From: Lachnospiraceae bacterium
GTDB lineage: Bacteria; Bacillota; Clostridia; Lachnospirales; Lachnospiraceae
NCBI GenBank assembly: GCA_017626325.1
Contig: JAGAIZ010000068.1
Span: 1 to 33,827 of the forward strand
Reading direction: 5' to 3'
Length of the DNA: 33,827 bases
Part shown: piece by piece, positions 6,063 to 18,041 of the stretch
How positions within the stretch are numbered: the stretch's first letter is position 1
Layout: each line of letters begins with the position of its first letter
Translations under genes and position numbers: made by a program
Notes under the pieces: model-generated
Database searches by the model: none
What the model was told of the DNA's origin: nothing
Seen by the model: the letters and a program-made list of their open reading frames with translations, nothing else

Positions 6063-9000
6063 ATGAAGTTCATGAGAAAATGGCTTGCGCCTGTTCTGGC
6101 AATAGCGATCATGCTTGGCGACTGCGGCGGCATTTCTCTATATGCCAAAGAGTCCATACCGGCTATGGAGATGTCAGTCTCTGAAAATGATGCGGAGAGT
6201 CCGCAGGAAAGTGAAGATGACACATCCATTCCGGACGAAATGACAGAAGATTCTGCATATGCTGCGGAAGAAGAGACGGAAAGCGCCGATGATGACGATG
6301 CGCGGTCTGTCCCGGATGACAGTGAGGGCGATGAGGAGCCGGAGCTTATTTCAGATGAGGATGGGACAGCTTCGGCAGCCGAATTACCTGCCTTGCGGAT
6401 CGGACAGATCAGGAAGGGAGAAGCGCTTCCTGCTTCGGATGACTCCGATTTCGTATACGGTTTGCCGGTTTCTTTTGAGAAGGCCGACAGACTGGTGCTG
6501 TTTGTGAATTATCAGACAGAGGAGATGCCGGAGGAGGGAACGTTAGTCTGGAGCATTCTGCGCGGCGTAAGGGGAACGGCTGCGGGCAGCGCCAGCCTGC
6601 TTCAGGAGGAGGACGACTGGACTAAGTTCGAAGAAGTGTCGGAATCCCCATATTTTATCATGACGGAAAATGACGATGAAGAAAGCGGCTATTACCGGAC
6701 GGTGGAGCTTGTCCCGGCAGCAGATGTCGCTGCGGCTCCCGGGAAGAATGAATATAAGGAAGATGCGCAGGACTGGGATTATTATATCCGGGCGGCTTAT
6801 TATCCGGGAACCGGGACAGATGAGAAGGATGCGTTTTATTCTGCCGCGACGATACCGTTTCTGCCTCAAACAAACGCCGCTGCAGCAGAACAGACAGATG
6901 AGGATGCTGCCGGTACTGAGGAGGCTTCGGCAGATTCCCTGCAGGATGAGGATTCTGTTTCGGAAAATACCATTGACATCATCGAAGAAGGTATAAGCGA
7001 TGATAAAATGGAGACAGAAGAAAATGAGCAGAAGGATGCCTCTGATGCGGAAGCGGCAGAGGAGAGCGATTCAGAGCAGCCTTTGGAGAGCAGCGTTTCT
7101 GAGAACTCCATCACAGACAAGGCGGCAGAACCGGAAATTGCTGCCGTAGAGGACGGCGCTGCACAGCAGACTGTAAAGGAAAATATCGGTGTGCTTACCT
7201 TGAGTTCGGAGAGCGTAACATTGCATCCCGATGAAGAATTTACGGTCAGTGCGTCTATCGTGCCGAAGGATATCTCAGCACAGATTCAATGGGCAAGCGG
7301 CGACGAGACCATAGCCGGGGTAGTTTCCGTATCGGAAACTGGCGGCGCTCAAAACAATAATGAAAAGGTAAAAATTACCGCAAAGGCGGAAGGCACAACG
7401 CAGATTACTGCGGAATGCGGCGGTCTGACGGCTTCTGTCCGGGTAGAGGTCGTTCCCAGAGACGAGGATGAGGTATATGATCTTTCCGGCGATCTGTGGG
7501 TAGACGGTTTCCGGAAAGAAAGCGATGAGTTGGTCTATACAGGACAGAAGATCACTCAGGATTTCCGCGTATACCATAAGGAAACACTTCTAAGGGAAAA
7601 GACGGATTATACCCTGAGTTACAAAAATAACGTAAATGCCGCCGCGTGGAACTCCACGAAAGCCCCCAGCGTGACGATTACCCTGAAAGGGCAGTACAGC
7701 GGCAGCGTGACCTTGTACTATACGATCAGGCCTGCGGATATCAACAGCGCAGTCAGGGAGAATTCATCTGGTTCATCGGCATATGAACAGACGGTTGCTT
7801 ACAGCAAAAATCTGAAAATCCCGAATCCTGTGCTGACCTTTGCGAACAAGAAGCTGGCTGTTAAGAAGGATTTTGTCTGTGATTACGCTTCTCTGCCGGC
7901 GGATTATAACAAGGGAGATGCCTATATGCCGGGACAGATCTATGAGTATACCGTCCGCGGAACGGGTAATTTCACCGGCTCTTTTACCATGCAGCTTGTT
8001 GTCCTGAAGGACAAAGGCCTGAATTTCGCCTCCGCGTCGGTGAAGCTTGGTCAGAAGCAGTATACCTATCACGGTACGGCGCTGTCCAAATCAGATGTAA
8101 CGATAGAAACGCTGACTCTGAACAAAAAGGCGCTGGATAAAGCTTATTATGACTATGAAGTCTGTGCGGAAGGCACAGAGAACGCCTATGTGATGGTATA
8201 CCCTTCCGAGACGGGCAGGGAGGCAGGATACCGGGGTTACAAAAAGATCAGTCTGAAAGTAACAGGGGACCGGAATATCAAGGACGCTGCGCTTGGGGTC
8301 AACTGGAAGGAAAGCATACCCTTTTCCCAGAAGGTATTGAATGAACAGGGCGGCTTCTTCCAGGCGGAAACAGGACTGTTGAGATTCGGAAATGATACGC
8401 TTGCGGAAGGAATCGATTATACCGTAAAGTATCAAAACAACCAGAAGGCAGGAACCGCGACGGTTACCTTCACCGGGAAGGGCAGATATAAAGGCTCTGT
8501 CAGGAAAAAATATGTAATTACCCCCAATGCCGGGCAGGGAAATTTCACCTTTAGCTGGAAAAATGTGACGAAAAAAGATAAAACGCTCATGATTGCCTAT
8601 CAAAAAGGCGGGGCTGTGCCGGATTTTGTCTTGAAGGATCAGGATAATAATATTCTGAAAGACAAAACCGATTATACGGTTAAGTATAAGAATAACAAAA
8701 CGCCCGGACAGATGATGAGCTGCGAGGTCACCGGCAAAGGGAATTACAAGGGATATACACAGACGATACAGCTTCTGGTAACATACGGCGATATCAGTCA
8801 GGGAACCCTGTCTGTCCAGGATAAGCCTTACAGTACGAAGCAAAACGCATGGAAATCAGCGGTAACCGTAACAGACGTAAACGGAAAGAAGCTGTCTGCC
8901 GGAAAGGATTATGAGAAGACGCCTGCCTATACATATGCTGATATGGATAACGGCCAGCCTCCCAGGGCGGGGACGGTCATTACTGTGACGGTGAAAGGAC

Positions 9001-10724
9001 TGGGCTTATATGAAGGCTCCGTCATTACCGGGACATACCGTATTTTTAATACCAATATCAGCAAACTGCAGATTGTCATTGACGATCAGGAATATACCGG
9101 GAAGGAAGTTACATTAGAGAAAAAGGATATCCATGTATACGCAACGGCGGCTGATAAGAAAAATAAGAGAAACGAATTGACGCGGCCGTGTTATGAAATT
9201 GCAGAATACAAGAACAATATTAAAGCTGGTACCGCTAAGGTAACCTTACGCGGTATCGGAGATTACGGCGGAACAAAAACCTATTCTTTTAAGATTCAGA
9301 AGAAAACGTATCTCAAAAACGGCGTAAAGGGTATCAAACTGGACAAAACCGTTCTCTCATGTTCTGTTCAGGATACGGAGCAGAAGAGAACGCTGACTGC
9401 CACATTAAGTCCGGCAAACGATAAGGAAGCGCTTACGAATCCGACTGTAATCTGGTCTTCCTCCAATAGTAATATCGCGGTTGTGGAAAGCCGGATTGTC
9501 AATGGGACGACTGTTGCCGGAGTCATTAAGCCCAAAAGAGAAGGAAGCGTGACAATTACCGCGATTACGCAGGACGGCAATAAACGGGCGCAGTGTAAGG
9601 TCACGATATCAGATAAGCTGATTCTTATACAGGCCGGACGGACGATTCAAAGGAACGTGGGTGAAACCTATCAGTTAGAGCTTGCAGGCAGAGAGACCCA
9701 GGAAAGCCTCTCGGACGGTATTGTGTGGAGCAGCAGTAATCCCAATGCGGTAGCGGTAAGTAATACGGGCAGGCTCACCATGAAAAAGGCAGGCGCGGCT
9801 GTAATCACGGTATACAAAAAGACCGATCCCGGTTATGTGCAGCAGTGTTATGCGGTAGCGATAGGGGATGAGGAGGAACCGGAAGGAAGCAAAGTGCTCA
9901 GGTATGAGCGGCAAGCCGGTACTACGGACGATACTTCGGCGATCAACAGGCTGCTTAGGGAATGGGAATGGAATCCTGACAGATATGAGTGTATGTATAT
10001 CCCTGCAGGCGTATACCGGATAGATGCGGTGCCGACCGGCGGAGACAATGGGTTCGGCGGTATTGTCCTGACGGATAATCAGACATTGATCTTATCCCCC
10101 GGCGCTCTTTTGATTGCCAATGGAAATGATCAGGCGAATTCTCAGGTGATCTATGCGTTTGGCCGCGACAACATTACTATTTCCGGCGGTCAGATCATCG
10201 GAGAGCGCAATGAGCATACGGGCAAAGGCGGTGAATGGGGTCATGGAATCAGCATAGTGGGCTGTACCAATGTGACGATCAGGGATATGGACATCTCCCA
10301 GTGCTGGGGAGACGGCATTTATCTTGGATATTATGACGGACCGAACCTTTGCAGTAATGGCGTCACCATTGAGAACTGCAATCTTCATGATAACAGAAGA
10401 AATAATCTTTCTATCACAGATGTGTCTAATGTTACGGTAAGAAACTGTCAGTTCAATTACGCAAAAGGAACGGATCCCCAGTTCGGCATCGATATTGAGC
10501 CTAATGCCGGAAGACCGTGTCAGAATATTAATATATATGATTCTACATTTACAGGAAACGCCGTAGCCAGTATGGGAATTATGACCGCTGCGAAGGATAT
10601 CAGGATTGAGAATTGTACCATGGACGGAGATTTTATCAATTGGGCCGGCAAAAATGTGGTGCTTAAGAATACGACTGTTAAAGGCAAAATAAACGACCAT
10701 GCAGGCGGCATAAAACGGGAATGA
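6063..10724 (+). CDS. Secreted Ig-like/beta-helix multidomain protein
   Basis: A 1,553-residue exported protein. Residues 1-28 form a signal peptide (MRKW, hydrophobic core, likely cut after LYA). The next ~75 residues are acidic low-complexity, an unrecognised domain spans about 108-268, and another acidic stretch runs to about 370. The motif SVSEN occurs three times (near 38, 298, 344). A BIG2-like Ig fold lies at 376-463. Seven repeats of the type YTG...DYTVKYKNN...GTATVTFTGKGRYKGS follow (about 478-1085), then two more BIG2-like domains (about 1087-1180 and 1183-1270). The C-terminus (1278-1553) is a right-handed parallel beta-helix related to pectate lyase/polygalacturonase folds, with many VTIRDMD/VTIENCN coils. 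No LPXTG, SLH domain or C-terminal membrane helix is visible, so it is probably released or held non-covalently. AGGAGG at 6050-6055 sets the start. Carbohydrate binding or cleavage is plausible but unproven. Confidence 0.85.
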   Translation: MKFMRKWLAPVLAIAIMLGDCGGISLYAKESIPAMEMSVSENDAESPQESEDDTSIPDEMTEDSAYAAEEETESADDDDARSVPDDSEGDEEPELISDEDGTASAAELPALRIGQIRKGEALPASDDSDFVYGLPVSFEKADRLVLFVNYQTEEMPEEGTLVWSILRGVRGTAAGSASLLQEEDDWTKFEEVSESPYFIMTENDDEESGYYRTVELVPAADVAAAPGKNEYKEDAQDWDYYIRAAYYPGTGTDEKDAFYSAATIPFLPQTNAAAAEQTDEDAAGTEEASADSLQDEDSVSENTIDIIEEGISDDKMETEENEQKDASDAEAAEESDSEQPLESSVSENSITDKAAEPEIAAVEDGAAQQTVKENIGVLTLSSESVTLHPDEEFTVSASIVPKDISAQIQWASGDETIAGVVSVSETGGAQNNNEKVKITAKAEGTTQITAECGGLTASVRVEVVPRDEDEVYDLSGDLWVDGFRKESDELVYTGQKITQDFRVYHKETLLREKTDYTLSYKNNVNAAAWNSTKAPSVTITLKGQYSGSVTLYYTIRPADINSAVRENSSGSSAYEQTVAYSKNLKIPNPVLTFANKKLAVKKDFVCDYASLPADYNKGDAYMPGQIYEYTVRGTGNFTGSFTMQLVVLKDKGLNFASASVKLGQKQYTYHGTALSKSDVTIETLTLNKKALDKAYYDYEVCAEGTENAYVMVYPSETGREAGYRGYKKISLKVTGDRNIKDAALGVNWKESIPFSQKVLNEQGGFFQAETGLLRFGNDTLAEGIDYTVKYQNNQKAGTATVTFTGKGRYKGSVRKKYVITPNAGQGNFTFSWKNVTKKDKTLMIAYQKGGAVPDFVLKDQDNNILKDKTDYTVKYKNNKTPGQMMSCEVTGKGNYKGYTQTIQLLVTYGDISQGTLSVQDKPYSTKQNAWKSAVTVTDVNGKKLSAGKDYEKTPAYTYADMDNGQPPRAGTVITVTVKGLGLYEGSVITGTYRIFNTNISKLQIVIDDQEYTGKEVTLEKKDIHVYATAADKKNKRNELTRPCYEIAEYKNNIKAGTAKVTLRGIGDYGGTKTYSFKIQKKTYLKNGVKGIKLDKTVLSCSVQDTEQKRTLTATLSPANDKEALTNPTVIWSSSNSNIAVVESRIVNGTTVAGVIKPKREGSVTITAITQDGNKRAQCKVTISDKLILIQAGRTIQRNVGETYQLELAGRETQESLSDGIVWSSSNPNAVAVSNTGRLTMKKAGAAVITVYKKTDPGYVQQCYAVAIGDEEEPEGSKVLRYERQAGTTDDTSAINRLLREWEWNPDRYECMYIPAGVYRIDAVPTGGDNGFGGIVLTDNQTLILSPGALLIANGNDQANSQVIYAFGRDNITISGGQIIGERNEHTGKGGEWGHGISIVGCTNVTIRDMDISQCWGDGIYLGYYDGPNLCSNGVTIENCNLHDNRRNNLSITDVSNVTVRNCQFNYAKGTDPQFGIDIEPNAGRPCQNINIYDSTFTGNAVASMGIMTAAKDIRIENCTMDGDFINWAGKNVVLKNTTVKGKINDHAGGIKRE

Positions 10725-12826: not shown

Positions 12827-13774
12827 ATGGCGAGCATCAGCTTAACTAAGATTATTGACAAATTTAAATGGGAGAACCTGACGCCGGAAATAGATATTTC
12901 CAAGATTAAGGTTACGCAGCCGGATATCAACAGACCGGCGTTACAGATGGCGGGGTACTTCGAGCACTTCGAGACGACGCGTCTTCAGATCGTAGGTTTT
13001 GTGGAATACTCTTATATGAACGAATTGAATGAGGAAAGACAGAAGGAAATCTTCGAGAAGCTTCTGAATAACCCGAACAATCCGATTCCGGCGATCGTCT
13101 TCTGCAGAGAATTATATCCGAATGAATTATTCAAGGAAATGGCGATTAAATACGGCGTTCCGCTTCTGATGAGCAAGAAAGCCACTTCCGAATGTATGGC
13201 TGAGGTCATCAGATGGCTGAATGTGAAGCTGGCGCCCTGTATCTCGGTACACGGCGTACTGGTGGATGTATATGGAGAGGGTGTGTTGATTACGGGTGAG
13301 AGCGGTATCGGTAAGTCCGAGGCGGCGCTTGAGCTTATTAAGAGAGGACACCGTCTTGTCACGGACGATGTGGTAGAGATCCGCAGAGTCAGCGAGGATA
13401 CGCTGGTTGGTTCCGCACCGGATATTACGAAGCATTTTATTGAGCTGCGGGGCATCGGTATTGTGGACGTCAAGGCACTGTTTGGTGCGTCCAGCGTCAG
13501 AGACACGCAGAATATCGATCTGGTCATCCGTCTGGAAGACTGGGATAAGGATAAGGAATACGACAGACTTGGTCTGGAAGAGGAATACACGGAGTATCTT
13601 GGCAATAAGGTAGTGTGCCATAATATTCCGATCAGGCCGGGCCGTAATCTGGCAATTATCTGTGAATCCGCCGCGGTTAATCACCGTCAGAAGAAGATGG
13701 GCTACAATGCTGCGCAGGAATTATATAAGAGAGTGCAGAATTCTCTTGCGCATGGCAGAGAGAATGACGATTAA
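12827..13774 (+). CDS. hprK: HPr kinase/phosphorylase
   Basis: Bifunctional enzyme that phosphorylates and dephosphorylates Ser46 of HPr and Crh, setting catabolite repression in Firmicutes. The family's known effectors are fructose-1,6-bisphosphate, ATP and phosphate. The 315-residue length is typical. The N-terminal domain (1-130) precedes conserved HGVLVDVYG (142-150), Walker A GESGIGKS (157-164), RGHRLVTDDVVEI (173-185, with the catalytic aspartate at 180/181), and the signature LRGIGIVDVKALFG (207-220). AAGGAGAAGG lies just upstream of the ATG. The ROK glucokinase starts 58 bases after the stop, and the HPr-like substrate candidate is encoded about 4 kb downstream in the same block. Confidence 0.97.
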   Translation: MASISLTKIIDKFKWENLTPEIDISKIKVTQPDINRPALQMAGYFEHFETTRLQIVGFVEYSYMNELNEERQKEIFEKLLNNPNNPIPAIVFCRELYPNELFKEMAIKYGVPLLMSKKATSECMAEVIRWLNVKLAPCISVHGVLVDVYGEGVLITGESGIGKSEAALELIKRGHRLVTDDVVEIRRVSEDTLVGSAPDITKHFIELRGIGIVDVKALFGASSVRDTQNIDLVIRLEDWDKDKEYDRLGLEEEYTEYLGNKVVCHNIPIRPGRNLAIICESAAVNHRQKKMGYNAAQELYKRVQNSLAHGRENDD

Positions 13775-13832
13775 GAAACAGGATGCGGTTCATGAACGGT
13801 TATGTTGAAAAATGTTTCAGAATGGAGAGAAT

Positions 13833-14771
13833 ATGGCAAAATACGTATTTGGAGTGGATGTAGGCGGTACGACCGTCAAACTTGGATTATTTGATATTAA
13901 CGGTGTGGTTGTGGAGAAGTGGGAGATTCCCACGAGAACAGCCAACGGCGGTGAGAAGATCCTGCCGGATATTGCGGACAGCATCAAAGCGAAGATGGCG
14001 GACAGAGAGATACCGAAGGAAGAGGTTGCAGGCGTAGGCGTAGGAGTTCCCGGTCCTGTAGACGGCAGGGGAATCGTGCATAAGGCGGTGAACCTTGGAT
14101 GGGGCGAGGTAGACTTGAAGAAGGAGCTGGAAGCCCTCTTAGACGGCATGAAAGTAGAAGGCGGCAACGATGCCAATGTGGCGGCCCTCGGCGAGATGTG
14201 GAAGGGCGGCGGTCAGGGACATCAGAGCCTGGTGGCTGTTACGCTGGGAACCGGTGTCGGCGGCGGTATTATTATTAATGGCAGAATTATGACAGGCGCG
14301 ACCGGAGCGGGCGGTGAAATCGGACATATTCATTTGGAGGATAACGAAACGGAAGCCTGTGGCTGCGGCAATTTCGGCTGCCTGGAGGAATACGCTTCCG
14401 CGACGGGCATTACCAGACTTGCCAACCGTGCCCTGCAGGCCTGCGATAAAGACAGCGTTCTCAGAACAGGAGAGGTGTCCGCTAAGACGGTCTTCGACGC
14501 GGTGAAAGCCGGAGATGAGCTGGCAATTGAAGTGGCGAAGAAATTCGGCGATTATCTCGGCAAGGGGCTTGGCATAATCGCGGGAGTCATCAACCCGGAA
14601 ATTTTTGTAATCGGCGGCGGCGTATCCAAGGCCGGTGAGGTGTTATTTGAATATATCAGACCTTCTTATGAAGAGACGGCATTCCATGCCTGCAAGGATA
14701 CGCCGTTCGCGCTGGCGACGCTGGGCAATGACGCTGGTATTTACGGAGCGGCTAAGATGGTATTGGATTAA
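13833..14771 (+). CDS. ROK-family glucokinase
   Basis: Phosphorylates glucose to glucose-6-phosphate in the cytoplasm. This 312-residue ROK protein carries the N-terminal ATP-binding motif DVGGTTVKLG (9-18), GVGVPGPVDGRG, the substrate/catalytic segment GGNDANVAALGE with D113, GTGVGGGIIING, and the ROK zinc signature: H165 in GEIGHIH plus C177-x-C179-x3-C183 (CGCGNFGC). It has no N-terminal helix-turn-helix, so it is an enzyme and not a NagC/XylR-type repressor. The ATG at 13833 is preferred over one at 13812 because GGAG (13824-13827) lies just upstream. It probably shares the hprK transcript. The fit to the glucokinase subgroup is good, but other hexoses or amino sugars cannot be excluded by sequence reading. 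Confidence 0.9.
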   Translation: MAKYVFGVDVGGTTVKLGLFDINGVVVEKWEIPTRTANGGEKILPDIADSIKAKMADREIPKEEVAGVGVGVPGPVDGRGIVHKAVNLGWGEVDLKKELEALLDGMKVEGGNDANVAALGEMWKGGGQGHQSLVAVTLGTGVGGGIIINGRIMTGATGAGGEIGHIHLEDNETEACGCGNFGCLEEYASATGITRLANRALQACDKDSVLRTGEVSAKTVFDAVKAGDELAIEVAKKFGDYLGKGLGIIAGVINPEIFVIGGGVSKAGEVLFEYIRPSYEETAFHACKDTPFALATLGNDAGIYGAAKMVLD

Positions 14772-14898: not shown

Positions 14899-14946
14899 AT
14901 AACAAGAGTATAGATAAGAATAATTTTTGAAATGGGTCGGGGTGTC

Positions 14947-15861
14947 ATGTTGAGCGCGTCAATGTATGATTATATCAAAACAATTATTCCGGGAGAACGA
15001 ATTCTTTTTCATGAGCCGATGAGTAAGTATACTACCTTCCGGGTAGGCGGAGAAGCGGAATGCCTGCTGGTGGTTCAGACAGAGGAGGAACTTGCGAAGC
15101 TGATTCCGTATCTGAATCAGATAGATCAGGAATACTTTATTCTGGGCAATGGCAGCAATCTTTTGGTGGGTGACAAAGGATATCGGGGCATGATCGTCAA
15201 GTTCGGAGAGGAAATGTCGCAGATTCGGATAGAAGGTACACGAATGACTGTAAAGGCGGGGGCGCTTATGTCCAAAGCCGCCGTGACGGCGAAGCAGAAT
15301 GGTCTGACCGGACTGGAATTCGCGGCGGGGATACCTGGCAGCGTCGGCGGCGGTATCGTGATGAACGCGGGCGCTTATGAAGGAGAAATGAAGCAGATTG
15401 TAGAGTCGGTGCGGGTGATGGACAGGGACGGTCAGATTCTGATATTGGATAATGATACGATGGAATTCGGCTACCGCACCAGTATTATCAGGAACAGACC
15501 TTTTATTGTAGTGGAAGCGGTATTGCAGCTTGCCGAAGGCAGGCAGGAGGAAATAGAAGCCAGAATGGAAGAACTGGCGATGCTGCGCAAGAGCAAACAG
15601 CCGCTTGAGTATGCGAGCGCAGGCAGTACCTTCAAGCGTCCCGAAGGCTATTACGCCGGGAAGCTTATTATGGATGCCGGCATGAGAGGCTACCGTATCG
15701 GCGGCGCGCAGGTGTCCGATAAGCACTGTGGTTTCATTGTGAACACCGGCAAGGCGACGGCGGCTGATATTAAAGAAGTGATTGAGGAAGTGCAGGAGCG
15801 CGTTAAGGAGAGATTTCATGTGGCTTTGGAACCGGAGATTGTTTTTCTGGGGGATTTCTAG
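14947..15861 (+). CDS. murB: UDP-N-acetylenolpyruvoylglucosamine reductase
   Basis: FAD- and NADPH-dependent reductase that makes UDP-N-acetylmuramate, the second committed step of peptidoglycan synthesis. The FAD-binding motifs YTTFRVGG (28-35) and LGNGSNLLVGDKGYRG (66-81) are clear, followed by GLEFAAGIPGSVGGGIVMNAGAYEGE (122-147). Proposed active-site residues are R177 (GYRTSI), the proton donor S227 (AGSTFKRP) and E296 (LEPEIVFLG). The start is uncertain: ATG 14947 has GGGG four bases upstream and gives 304 residues, while ATG 14932 is also in frame without a good binding site. rapZ follows after 41 bases, suggesting one transcript for murB-rapZ-whiA-HPr. Confidence 0.94.
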   Translation: MLSASMYDYIKTIIPGERILFHEPMSKYTTFRVGGEAECLLVVQTEEELAKLIPYLNQIDQEYFILGNGSNLLVGDKGYRGMIVKFGEEMSQIRIEGTRMTVKAGALMSKAAVTAKQNGLTGLEFAAGIPGSVGGGIVMNAGAYEGEMKQIVESVRVMDRDGQILILDNDTMEFGYRTSIIRNRPFIVVEAVLQLAEGRQEEIEARMEELAMLRKSKQPLEYASAGSTFKRPEGYYAGKLIMDAGMRGYRIGGAQVSDKHCGFIVNTGKATAADIKEVIEEVQERVKERFHVALEPEIVFLGDF

Positions 15862-15902
15862 GCGGTCATGGAGAAAATTTGCGGTTGGGAAGGATAAGAG
15901 AT

Positions 15903-16766
15903 ATGAGATTTGTTGTGGTGACCGGTATGAGCGGTTCCGGGAAGAGAACCGCCATGAAGATGCTGGAGGATGTGGGCTTTTATTGCGTGGATAATCTTCC
16001 GGTGGCGTTGATTGAGAAGTTTGTGGATCTGATTACCATGCCTAACAGTGAGATCAGTAAGGTCGCGCTGGGGTTGGACGTGCGCGCGGACCAGTCCTTT
16101 GGCGATGCGCAGCGCATTCTGACCCAGCTTAAGGAGAGCGGTTATCCTCTTGAGATTCTCTTTATGGAAGCCAGTGACTCTGTTCTCCTGAAACGGTATA
16201 AGGAGACGAGAAGGCTTCATCCGCTGTCGCCGGAAGGAAGAGTGGAGGAAGGCGTCCACAAAGAGCGAGATATTCTGCAGGGCATCAGACAGAAAGCGGA
16301 TTATATTATTGATACGTCGAATCTGCTGACGAGAGAGCTTAAGGAAGAAATCGATCATATATTTGTGCGCAATGAAGAATACAACTCTCTGATGGTAAGC
16401 GTCTTGTCTTTTGGATTTAAGAACGGGATCCCGGCGGATGCCGATCTCGTGTTTGACGTTAGATTTCTTCCGAATCCGTTCTATATTGACGAGCTTAAGC
16501 ATAAAACTGGTAATGACAAGGAAGTGCAGGACTATGTTATGAGTTTCCCGGAAGCGGGGGAATTCCTGCAGAAGCTTGTGGACATGCTGGAATTCCTGAT
16601 TCCTAATTACGTCAAGGAGGGAAAGCACCAGTTGGTGATCGGCATAGGCTGTACCGGCGGAAAGCACAGGAGCGTAACGCTGGCAAATGAACTGTACGCC
16701 AGGATGAAGGTACATGGTAATTATGGTACGAAGCTGTATCATAGGGATATTAAGCAGGGAGTGTAG
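15903..16766 (+). CDS. rapZ: RapZ/YvcJ-family nucleotide-binding protein
   Basis: Members of this family bind nucleotides. In enterobacteria RapZ senses glucosamine-6-phosphate and controls glmS through small RNAs; in Bacillus the homologue YvcJ is a GTPase linked to competence. The 287-residue length is typical. The P-loop reads GMSGSGKRT (8-16): Arg15 sits where GxxxxGK[S/T] needs Ser or Thr, with Thr displaced by one. FYCVDNLP (27-33) is typical of the N-terminal domain. The C-terminal domain carries SFGFKNGIPADADLVFDVRF (169-188) and the phosphate-pocket-like GCTGGKHRSV (249-258). ATG 15903 is chosen because GGAAGGA (15888-15894) lies 8 bases upstream; an in-frame ATG at 15879 lacks this. 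whiA starts 5 bases after the stop. Confidence 0.95.
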   Translation: MRFVVVTGMSGSGKRTAMKMLEDVGFYCVDNLPVALIEKFVDLITMPNSEISKVALGLDVRADQSFGDAQRILTQLKESGYPLEILFMEASDSVLLKRYKETRRLHPLSPEGRVEEGVHKERDILQGIRQKADYIIDTSNLLTRELKEEIDHIFVRNEEYNSLMVSVLSFGFKNGIPADADLVFDVRFLPNPFYIDELKHKTGNDKEVQDYVMSFPEAGEFLQKLVDMLEFLIPNYVKEGKHQLVIGIGCTGGKHRSVTLANELYARMKVHGNYGTKLYHRDIKQGV

Positions 16767-16771
16767 AAGTA

Positions 16772-17692
16772 ATGTCTTTTTCAGCAACCGTAAAAGAAGA
16801 GCTTGCGGCACAGATCAGTTCTGCACGCCATTGTCAGTTGGCGGAGCTGGCGGCGCTGTTTCATTTTGCCGGGGGCGCTTGTGAGAATGGCGCTCATCTG
16901 ACCCTTGAGACGGAAAATGAGGCAGTTGCGAGAAAATGCTTTACATTACTTAAAAAAACATTTAATATAGAAAATGTTGTTATGCAGAATAAAACGATGC
17001 AGGGCAGAACAAGACTTCTGCCTGACGATGCGGCGGAGCATAAGGTAATACAGGCGCTGCATCTGATGGATGGAACAGGAAGCAAGGTGGCATTAAATGT
17101 GCCGGTTAATGTTCTCTTAATCAAGAATTCCTGCTGTCTGAGAGCGTATCTTAGAGGAGCGTTTCTGTGTGTGGGTTCCATGAGCGACCCGGAGAAGGGC
17201 TATCATCTGGAGTTTGTCTGCAGCAACAGGGAACAGGCAAGGCAGCTTCAGAGTATTATTCAGGAGTTTCAAATAGAATCTAAGATTATTAAGCGTAAGA
17301 AGTATGATGTGGTATATCTGAAAGAGGGAGCCGGTATCGTTGACCTTCTTAATGTGATGGAAGCTCATGTATCCCTGATGAAGCTGGAAAATCTCAGAAT
17401 CGTTAAGGAGATGCGCAATTCTATCAACAGAAGAGTGAATTGCGAGACGGCGAATATCTCTAAAACCGTTGTTGCGGCATCAAAACAGATAGAGGATATT
17501 ATTCTGGTCCGGGACAGATATGGCTTTGAAAATTTGCCGGACAATCTTAGACAGATGGCGGAGATTCGTCTGGAATTTCCGGAGGCGGCATTGAAGGAAT
17601 TGGGCGAGCACCTGGACCCGCCGGTCGGCAAGTCGGGTGTGAACCACAGATTACGCAGGCTAAGTGAGATTGCTGATAGAATCAGGTTATAA
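16772..17692 (+). CDS. whiA: WhiA-type DNA-binding protein
   Basis: WhiA combines an N-terminal LAGLIDADG homing-endonuclease-like fold with a C-terminal helix-turn-helix. In actinomycetes it is a sporulation transcription factor; in Bacillus it affects cell division and chromosome segregation. The 306-residue protein begins MSFSATVKEELA, shows the characteristic LRGAFLCVGSMSDPEKGYHLEF (about 128-149), and ends with a helix-turn-helix region (LPDNLRQMAEIRLEFPEAAL to GKSGVNHRLRRLSEIA). It lies 5 bases after rapZ and 14 before the HPr paralogue, matching the rapZ-whiA-crh order of Bacillus except that yvcK (glmR), normally between rapZ and whiA there, is absent. Confidence 0.95.
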   Translation: MSFSATVKEELAAQISSARHCQLAELAALFHFAGGACENGAHLTLETENEAVARKCFTLLKKTFNIENVVMQNKTMQGRTRLLPDDAAEHKVIQALHLMDGTGSKVALNVPVNVLLIKNSCCLRAYLRGAFLCVGSMSDPEKGYHLEFVCSNREQARQLQSIIQEFQIESKIIKRKKYDVVYLKEGAGIVDLLNVMEAHVSLMKLENLRIVKEMRNSINRRVNCETANISKTVVAASKQIEDIILVRDRYGFENLPDNLRQMAEIRLEFPEAALKELGEHLDPPVGKSGVNHRLRRLSEIADRIRL

Positions 17693-17706
17693 AGGAGGAG
17701 AATATT

Positions 17707-17961
17707 ATGATTCAAAAATCTATCCAGATTAAACTGGAGTCCGGCTTGGAAGCAAGACCGGTTGCAATGCTTGTACAGGTGGCAAGTCAGTTTGAGAGTA
17801 CTGTGTACATCAACTCAGGAGACAGGAAAGTCAACGCGAAAAGCATAATGGGTATGATGAGTCTTGGACTTGATAACGGCGAAGAAGTAACCGTAACCGC
17901 AGAGGGCAGCGACGAAGAGGCTGCTGTCACTGAGATCGAGAAGTTCCTCAGCAGTAAGTAA
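17707..17961 (+). CDS. Crh-like HPr paralogue (Glu15, Ser46)
   Basis: An 84-residue HPr-fold protein. In phosphocarrier HPr the motif GIHARPA carries His15, phosphorylated by enzyme I. Here the motif is GLEARPV with Glu at residue 15, read directly from codon GAA. The regulatory serine is intact: NAKSIMGMMSL places Ser46 exactly as in HPr and Crh. In Bacillus subtilis, Crh has Gln15 and Ser46, cannot carry phosphate to sugars, and acts as an HprK-controlled partner of CcpA. By analogy this protein is likely regulatory. AAAGGAGG precedes the ATG closely. It follows whiA by 14 bases and is followed by a strong terminator. A true His15 HPr would be expected elsewhere in the genome. The residue facts are certain; the regulatory role is inference. 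Confidence 0.93.
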   Translation: MIQKSIQIKLESGLEARPVAMLVQVASQFESTVYINSGDRKVNAKSIMGMMSLGLDNGEEVTVTAEGSDEEAAVTEIEKFLSSK

Positions 17962-18003: not shown

Positions 18004-18041
18004 AAGGGAGATTTCCGGTGGGGGTCTCCTTTTTCTTTTTT
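18004..18041 (+). terminator. Rho-independent terminator after the HPr paralogue
   Basis: AAGGGAGA (18004-18011) pairs with TCTCCTTT, extended inward by TTTCC/GGGGG, and is followed by TTTTTCTTTTTT. It ends the murB-rapZ-whiA-HPr transcript. Confidence 0.85.

Follow-up and report, generated by a model that had tools for sequence, protein, structure and literature searches.

A whiA-linked, Crh-like HPr paralogue with an acidic residue in place of His15 is widespread in Lachnospiraceae

An HPr paralogue with an acidic residue at position 15 is widespread in Lachnospiraceae. We describe it from a 33,827-nucleotide stretch of DNA from a Lachnospiraceae bacterium, hereafter called the window, in which the gene occupies positions 17707..17961 (+) and encodes 84 residues with Glu15 and Ser46. 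Judging from the sequences of this protein and its relatives, we consider it somewhat probable that the acidic paralogue is a Crh-type substrate of HprK, set in a phospho-His-like state, that would act through a partner other than CcpA.

The encoded protein belongs to the HPr superfamily (Pfam PF00381, PTS-HPr: 109 bits against a cut-off of 23, E 1.2e-31). An earlier reading of the window from sequence only had claimed a Glu codon at position 15 and an intact Ser46, and both were confirmed: codon 15 (17749..17751, +) is GAA within GLEARP, where phosphocarrier HPr has His, and codon 46 (17842..17844, +) is AGC (Ser) within NAKSIMGMMSL, at the position targeted by HprK. The protein thus lacks the His15 expected of PtsH and displays the combination expected of Crh, i.e. 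no His15 with Ser46 kept; it also lacks the Gln15 of Bacillus Crh, a residue found in only 1 of 113 genomes of the family. Its best sequence matches in the PDB are to “HPr-like protein crh” (E 1.4e-20), slightly above HPr-related proteins and HPr, and the crh chains are presumably those of B. subtilis. With the generic HPr phosphocarrier model TIGR01003 (NCBI) the protein scores 92.4 bits, above the cut-off of 47.9, and with NF010354/PRK13782, which is printed as “HPr family phosphocarrier protein” and which we take to be the Crh model, it scores 101.7 bits, below the cut-off of 123. Because the first model is passed and the second is not, pipeline annotation would probably name the product a PTS phosphocarrier, a misannotation of which the sequence-only reading had warned.

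The gene closes a run of same-strand genes in the order hprK, ROK glucokinase, murB, rapZ and whiA. The HPr(Ser) kinase/phosphorylase gene hprK (12827..13774, +; TIGR00679 369.5 bits, PF07475 244.2 bits) encodes the expected kinase, complete by sequence and with an intact Walker A motif, GESGIGKS, and is separated from murB (14932..15861, +; NF010480 373 bits) by the gene for a ROK-family glucokinase (13812..14771, +; TIGR00744 300.1 bits, cut-off 260.35). These are followed by rapZ (15903..16766, +; NF003828 361.9 bits), for which we adopted the ATG start at 15903 where the list of open reading frames has a TTG at 15879, and by whiA (16772..17692, +; TIGR00647 291.5 bits), the immediate upstream neighbor of the acidic crh-like gene. 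Only 14 bases separate the whiA stop from the crh-like start codon, and they include a ribosome-binding site, AGGAGG, read from the sequence just past that stop (17693..17698, +). A terminator-like hairpin of 13 pairs with a T tail (18004..18032, +) likely marks the end of the operon; the hairpin scan is weak by itself, returning 7 such sites in the region against 4.0 expected. The placement directly behind rapZ–whiA that had been described for the gene is therefore exact, and hprK does lie in the same block, its end being 3.9 kb before this gene and on the strand that they share. The proposed likeness to the neighborhood of Bacillus crh also holds, since B. subtilis crh follows whiA within one operon according to PMC10714963.

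We compared this arrangement with that of 80 named relatives, among them Blautia hansenii, Lactonifactor longoviformis, Robinsoniella peoriensis, Lacrimispora and Anaerocolumna. As in the window, and as expected of a crh gene, whiA is adjacent in 80/80; rapZ lies upstream in 77/80 and hprK in 55/80, and hprK is visible in 52 of the 70 named relatives whose upstream DNA extends for 6 kb or more. Two records titled Bacillus sp. and Muribaculaceae (L070 and L075) carry the hprK-to-crh block with 72–88% protein identity to the window and are probably mislabelled metagenome-assembled genomes. Elsewhere in the window, positions 6063–10724 (+) encode a 1553-residue surface-type protein which, from reading its translation, has repeated Ig-like stretches and a C-terminal part with the look of a right-handed helix.

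To tabulate residue 15 across Lachnospiraceae, as the sequence-only reading had proposed, we used three samples, which agree that Glu is dominant. The least biased is anchored on whiA, for which 293/298 Lachnospiraceae genomes have a WhiA match, and comprises 130 whiA loci in 128 genomes (30 supplied by the WhiA search and 100 hand-picked from its best matches, leaving aside some that had been read before or that lay close to a contig end); within the stretch read, 115 of these loci (113 genomes) carry an HPr-like gene. Counting each genome once, 88 have Glu at position 15, 20 have Asp, 2 have Ala and one each has Gln, Gly and Asn; none has His, so that an acid is present in 108/113. Ser46 is present in 113/113 and Arg17 is kept in 97/113, and both Asn43 and Lys45 occur in all 115 rows. 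In 15 of the 128 genomes an HPr-like gene was not found in the stretch read after whiA (L226, L232, L267, L277, L285, L288, L290, L292, L312, L313, L335, L340, L344, L347 and L360). The second sample, the 80 named loci, represents the closest relatives and was found by the patterns KSIMGMM and A[LMV]LVQ[VL]ASQ, which fix or nearly fix residues 45–51 and leave residue 15 outside; here Glu is found in 77, Asp in 2 and Gly in 1. The third is a class-level sample of 110 loci (30 returned and 80 picked from the list of a profile search), in which 19 whiA-linked genes of Lachnospiraceae have Glu in 16, Asp in 2 and Gly in 1, and 27 whiA-linked genes outside the family have H in 12, Q in 5, K in 3, N in 2 and S, T, R, Y and D in 1 each. 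The search profile was built from 12 Glu15 proteins, and this does not hide His15, since it recovered all 19 of the His15 HPrs given to it. Conservation in relatives rules out a sequencing error, chance or a single-species oddity as the cause of Glu15, and the acid is a genuine, conserved difference from the Gln15 of Bacillus Crh.

At the nucleotide level, codon 15 in the 115 rows is GAA in 45, GAG in 45, GAT in 13, GAC in 7 and another codon in 5. We mapped the residue by parsimony on a tree from which column 15 had been excluded (112 rows, two duplicate-genome loci and one truncated row having been dropped). Of the 13 changes required, 8 exchange Glu and Asp and 5 are between an acid and another residue; ten other columns used for comparison take 4 to 54 changes, and column 15 is not the slowest. 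The 8 of 13 changes that exchange Glu and Asp exceed a codon-neighbor expectation (p 0.003 with kappa set to 2, where Asp makes up about 22% of replacements; p 0.013 with kappa set to 1), in a rough test that ignores shared ancestry and does not fix the direction of change. Since Glu/Asp exchange is mild in every protein, a conserved acid at position 15 does not prove phospho-mimicry.

A wider tree joins 71 of the 110 class-level loci to 19 HPrs linked to enzyme I, 4 orphan HPrs from Lachnospiraceae and a single Crh from Bacillus. The 19 whiA-linked proteins of Lachnospiraceae form one clade with a support of 100/100, and nearest to it are whiA-linked genes with N/S/T, R/H and Q at position 15 (92/90). 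Another set of Glu15 proteins, of the type GLESK and from other clostridial families, is placed among His15 HPrs (97/93). In addition, a single Asp15 gene falls inside a whiA-linked group of nine, the rest of which have His15 in seven and Asn in one (fork 87/91). The acid at position 15 thus arose, most simply, more than once: both the GLESK clade among His15 HPrs and the Asp15 gene in a mostly His15 group, the latter on the fork supported at 87/91, speak against a single origin. This tree, with its 83 columns only, does not resolve the fork that holds the Crh of Bacillus. The suggestion in the sequence-only reading that a negative charge could mimic phospho-His is strengthened by the acid in 108/113 genomes and in apparently two other lineages.

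Three PF00381 matches occur in the source genome, which is 3.11 Mb in size and 92% complete: the acidic gene, an 87-residue His15 HPr and a 76-residue short protein. The His15 HPr adjoins a glmM-like gene, a neighbor named by reading open reading frames, and retains a serine at position 46, though within an altered sequence, NAKSVLSVLG. The genome also has enzyme I (TIGR01417, 556 bits) and a single match to a PTS EIIC. A search for a second, His15 HPr, put forward in the sequence-only reading as a check, was hence successful, and the idea that the acidic protein is the sole HPr of a genome with PTS genes, which would have refuted that reading, was rejected, there being three HPr-family genes. 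With a His15 HPr, enzyme I and EIIC in the same genome, the acidic protein is not its phosphocarrier. In the 76-residue protein (L003:1492-1722, minus strand, contig C49; Pfam 25.9 bits, cut-off 23), the His15 loop is missing and the DAKSIMGIFSLDL serine motif is kept; its gene adjoins a thiI-like gene, again named by reading open reading frames, and its product is a possible third substrate of HprK.

The enzyme-I-linked HPrs of Lachnospiraceae belong to the same protein and bacterial families and are the mirror image of the acidic paralogue. We read 30 such genes from 29 genomes, in batches of 11 and 19 (L006, L007, L009, L011, L012, L017, L022, L024, L025, L029, L030 and L376–L394), taken as the highest-scoring PF00381 places beside enzyme I and not as a random draw. 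His15 is present in 30/30 and Ser46 in only 1/30; the other 29 have Arg, Lys, Gly, Thr, Ala or Gln at position 46, which was read by eye in the first 11. The second batch of 19 forms one clade (100/99). Since the enzyme-I-linked HPr lacks Ser46 in most relatives sampled, transport and signaling, i.e. the enzyme I site and the HprK site, would thus lie on separate proteins there. The source genome is a partial exception, in which the split is incomplete: its own His15 HPr is of another type and retains the serine, so that HprK could act there too. We tentatively extend these observations to the possibility, which we hold to be somewhat short of probable, that an enzyme-I-linked His15 HPr without Ser46 and a whiA-linked acidic Crh with Ser46 but without His15 share out the two sites at which HPr is phosphorylated, with HprK signaling mainly through the acidic Crh, which would be fixed in a P-His-like state and have a CcpA-independent output.

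Based on the position and residues of the acidic paralogue, we propose the following mechanism. HprK, encoded in the same block, would phosphorylate Ser46 in response to high levels of glycolytic intermediates; the acid at position 15 would block normal phosphotransfer from enzyme I, and at the same time would give the protein the surface charge of P-His HPr, a form reported to be unable to bind CcpA. A counterpoint is that the authors of PMC3526391 also name lower glucose import as a possible cause of the relief that they observed. Because of this P-His-like charge, the acidic protein would not serve as a CcpA co-repressor, and it would instead bind another partner in a Ser46-dependent manner. 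The leading candidate is methylglyoxal synthase (MgsA), which offers a known CcpA-independent output of Crh and is found in 60/60 of the Lachnospiraceae genomes searched (48 over the cut-off), including a single copy on contig C79 of the source genome. In B. subtilis, unphosphorylated Crh inhibits MgsA, as described in PMC9631020 and PMC13130090. In a narrower form of the proposed mechanism, MgsA would be the single main target, the unphosphorylated acidic protein inhibiting it and Ser46 phosphorylation by HprK releasing it as a methylglyoxal-bypass switch. The B. subtilis precedent and the presence of MgsA throughout the genomes searched favor this, and co-occurrence is weak evidence in a search confined, among clostridial families, to Lachnospiraceae, which is why we regard a switch of this kind as possible and on the unlikely side.

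A second alternative is that the protein is an ordinary Crh orthologue, in which Glu15 is merely another non-His residue and the Ser46-P form co-represses with a LacI/GalR protein acting as CcpA. In its favor, the best PDB sequence matches are to Crh, the gene follows whiA as in Bacillus, and residue 15 is variable in the 27 whiA-linked genes outside Lachnospiraceae. We looked at CcpA itself. With the NCBI CcpA model (cut-off 442 bits) the source genome gives 16 matches, the best at 168 bits, and no match over the cut-off was found in 200 Lachnospiraceae genomes, the best reaching 267 bits; 12 of the 200 are without any match at E 0.001, and in five of those 12 (G040, G058, G170, G212 and G218) the Ser46 protein was read. 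The cut-off was not passed in any of 146 genomes of the class either, so that a low score need not mean that CcpA is absent, and since several clostridial families reach only about 230–255 bits at best, the weak score is not special to Lachnospiraceae. Four other clostridial families, however, reach 320–358 bits.

These four families provide a comparison at the residues that contact HPr. The pair inspected is Asp at position 296 and Arg at position 303 of the solved CcpA chain, with numbering from the alignment, and we take the Asp to be an HPr-contact residue of CcpA. For the Arg, contact of B. subtilis CcpA Arg304 with Ser46-P is reported in PMC4591507. The Asp/Arg pair is present in 12/12 of the best class-level clostridial CcpAs, drawn from the four families, and in 0/12 of the aligned LacI proteins of Lachnospiraceae (6 of the 16 matches of the source genome and the 6 best in the family), one of which has the Arg alone and one the Asp alone; one further protein was without the aligned region, one was unaligned, and the other 10 of the 16 matches are candidate partners in favor of an ordinary Crh orthologue. 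Together with the argument of PMC3526391 that an acid at position 15 should disfavor CcpA binding, the low family-wide score and the absence of the contact pair from the aligned proteins make an ordinary Crh orthologue unlikely in our judgment. Lachnospiraceae seem, from these comparisons, to lack the usual partner regulator CcpA, and a weak or missing CcpA fits with an acidic protein that is not taken by CcpA. The designation as a Crh-type regulator made in the sequence-only reading accordingly stands as regards the absent His15, the retained Ser46 and the crh position, and is less supported as regards an ordinary Crh working with CcpA. Its signaling thus probably follows a route that has yet to be described.

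The relation of the acidic protein to the PTS was assessed from gene content. HprK is present in 294/298 Lachnospiraceae genomes and the N-domain of enzyme I in 268/298. Twenty of the 30 genomes without enzyme I were listed, and in the 10 of these for which the gene was read, residue 15 is Glu in 8, Ala in 1 and Gly in 1, with Ser46 in 10/10; some of these assemblies are fragmented, and enzyme I may be missed in them. In one of the 10 (G076), the gene is the only PF00381 match. Judging from these genomes, the protein can apparently do without a PTS, and the retention of Glu15 in 8/10 of them rules out that the residue is kept merely to avoid enzyme I. The same retention bears on a third alternative, that Glu/Asp15 slowly accepts phosphate from enzyme I as an acyl-phosphate, whose decay would make it a transient readout of PTS activity. 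An Asp at the active site is reportedly the subject of Napper et al. 1999, as its title has it (cited in PMC6763467), and Arg17 is kept in most genomes, both in line with such chemistry; Glu is nevertheless commoner than Asp (88 to 20) and persists where enzyme I was not found, and we consider a slow phospho-acceptor very unlikely. Finally, a decaying, functionless HPr duplicate would account for the loss of the catalytic His and is scarcely credible, being contradicted by the conservation of Ser46, Lys45 and Asn43 throughout, by the single supported clade and by the conserved place after whiA. One Lachnospiraceae genome, G296 (98% complete), yields no match to either PF00381 or HprK, and the HPr proteins and the kinase may have been lost together in it.

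Among the closest known systems, Bacillus Crh shares with the acidic protein the HPr family, the absence of His15, Ser46 in KSIMG and a gene directly after whiA (PMC10714963), and it is the best PDB sequence match. The two differ in the acid in place of Gln at position 15, in the score of the acidic protein below the NF010354 cut-off, and in the contact pair, which is absent from the 12 aligned Lachnospiraceae LacI proteins. Gln15 is seen as GLQARP in the Crh rows of the PDB matches, and Parageobacillus Crh has Gln at this position (PMC9631020). PtsH of Firmicutes shares the HPr family, the Ser46 region, Arg17 and Pro18, but the acidic protein lacks His15 and so would not carry PTS phosphate in the normal manner. 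The GLESK-type paralogue resembles it in having Glu15 in 15 of the 19 read (L143, L150, L160, L163, L164, L169, L171, L175, L177, L181, L189, L195, L197, L205 and L216; Gln in 3 and Gly in 1) and Ser46 in all, whereas no whiA lies beside it in the stretches read, Lys replaces Arg17 and it forms a separate clade; most simply, its acid would have an independent origin. Ccel_0806 of Clostridium cellulolyticum is likewise Crh-like, and the authors of PMC3656788 find no HPr orthologue in that organism; they propose CcpA-like LacI proteins as the partners of Ccel_0806. In titles and abstract openings of the open-licence literature we found no mention of an acidic Crh, or of Ser46 loss, in Lachnospiraceae, which is no proof of absence. 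As far as sequence can tell, the acidic protein works like a Crh, yet it has neither Gln15 nor a score above the NF010354 cut-off, and CcpA is a doubtful partner for it.

Lachnospiraceae are major gut fermenters. With HprK in nearly all genomes of the family and no clear CcpA in 200 genomes at the strict cut-off, the acidic Crh is the obvious substrate of HprK and offers a handle on its output. It also makes a question posed in vitro, namely whether P-His charge on HPr excludes CcpA, testable in nature. If the two phosphorylation sites are indeed split between proteins and the output is independent of CcpA, catabolite control in this major group of gut bacteria would be wired differently.
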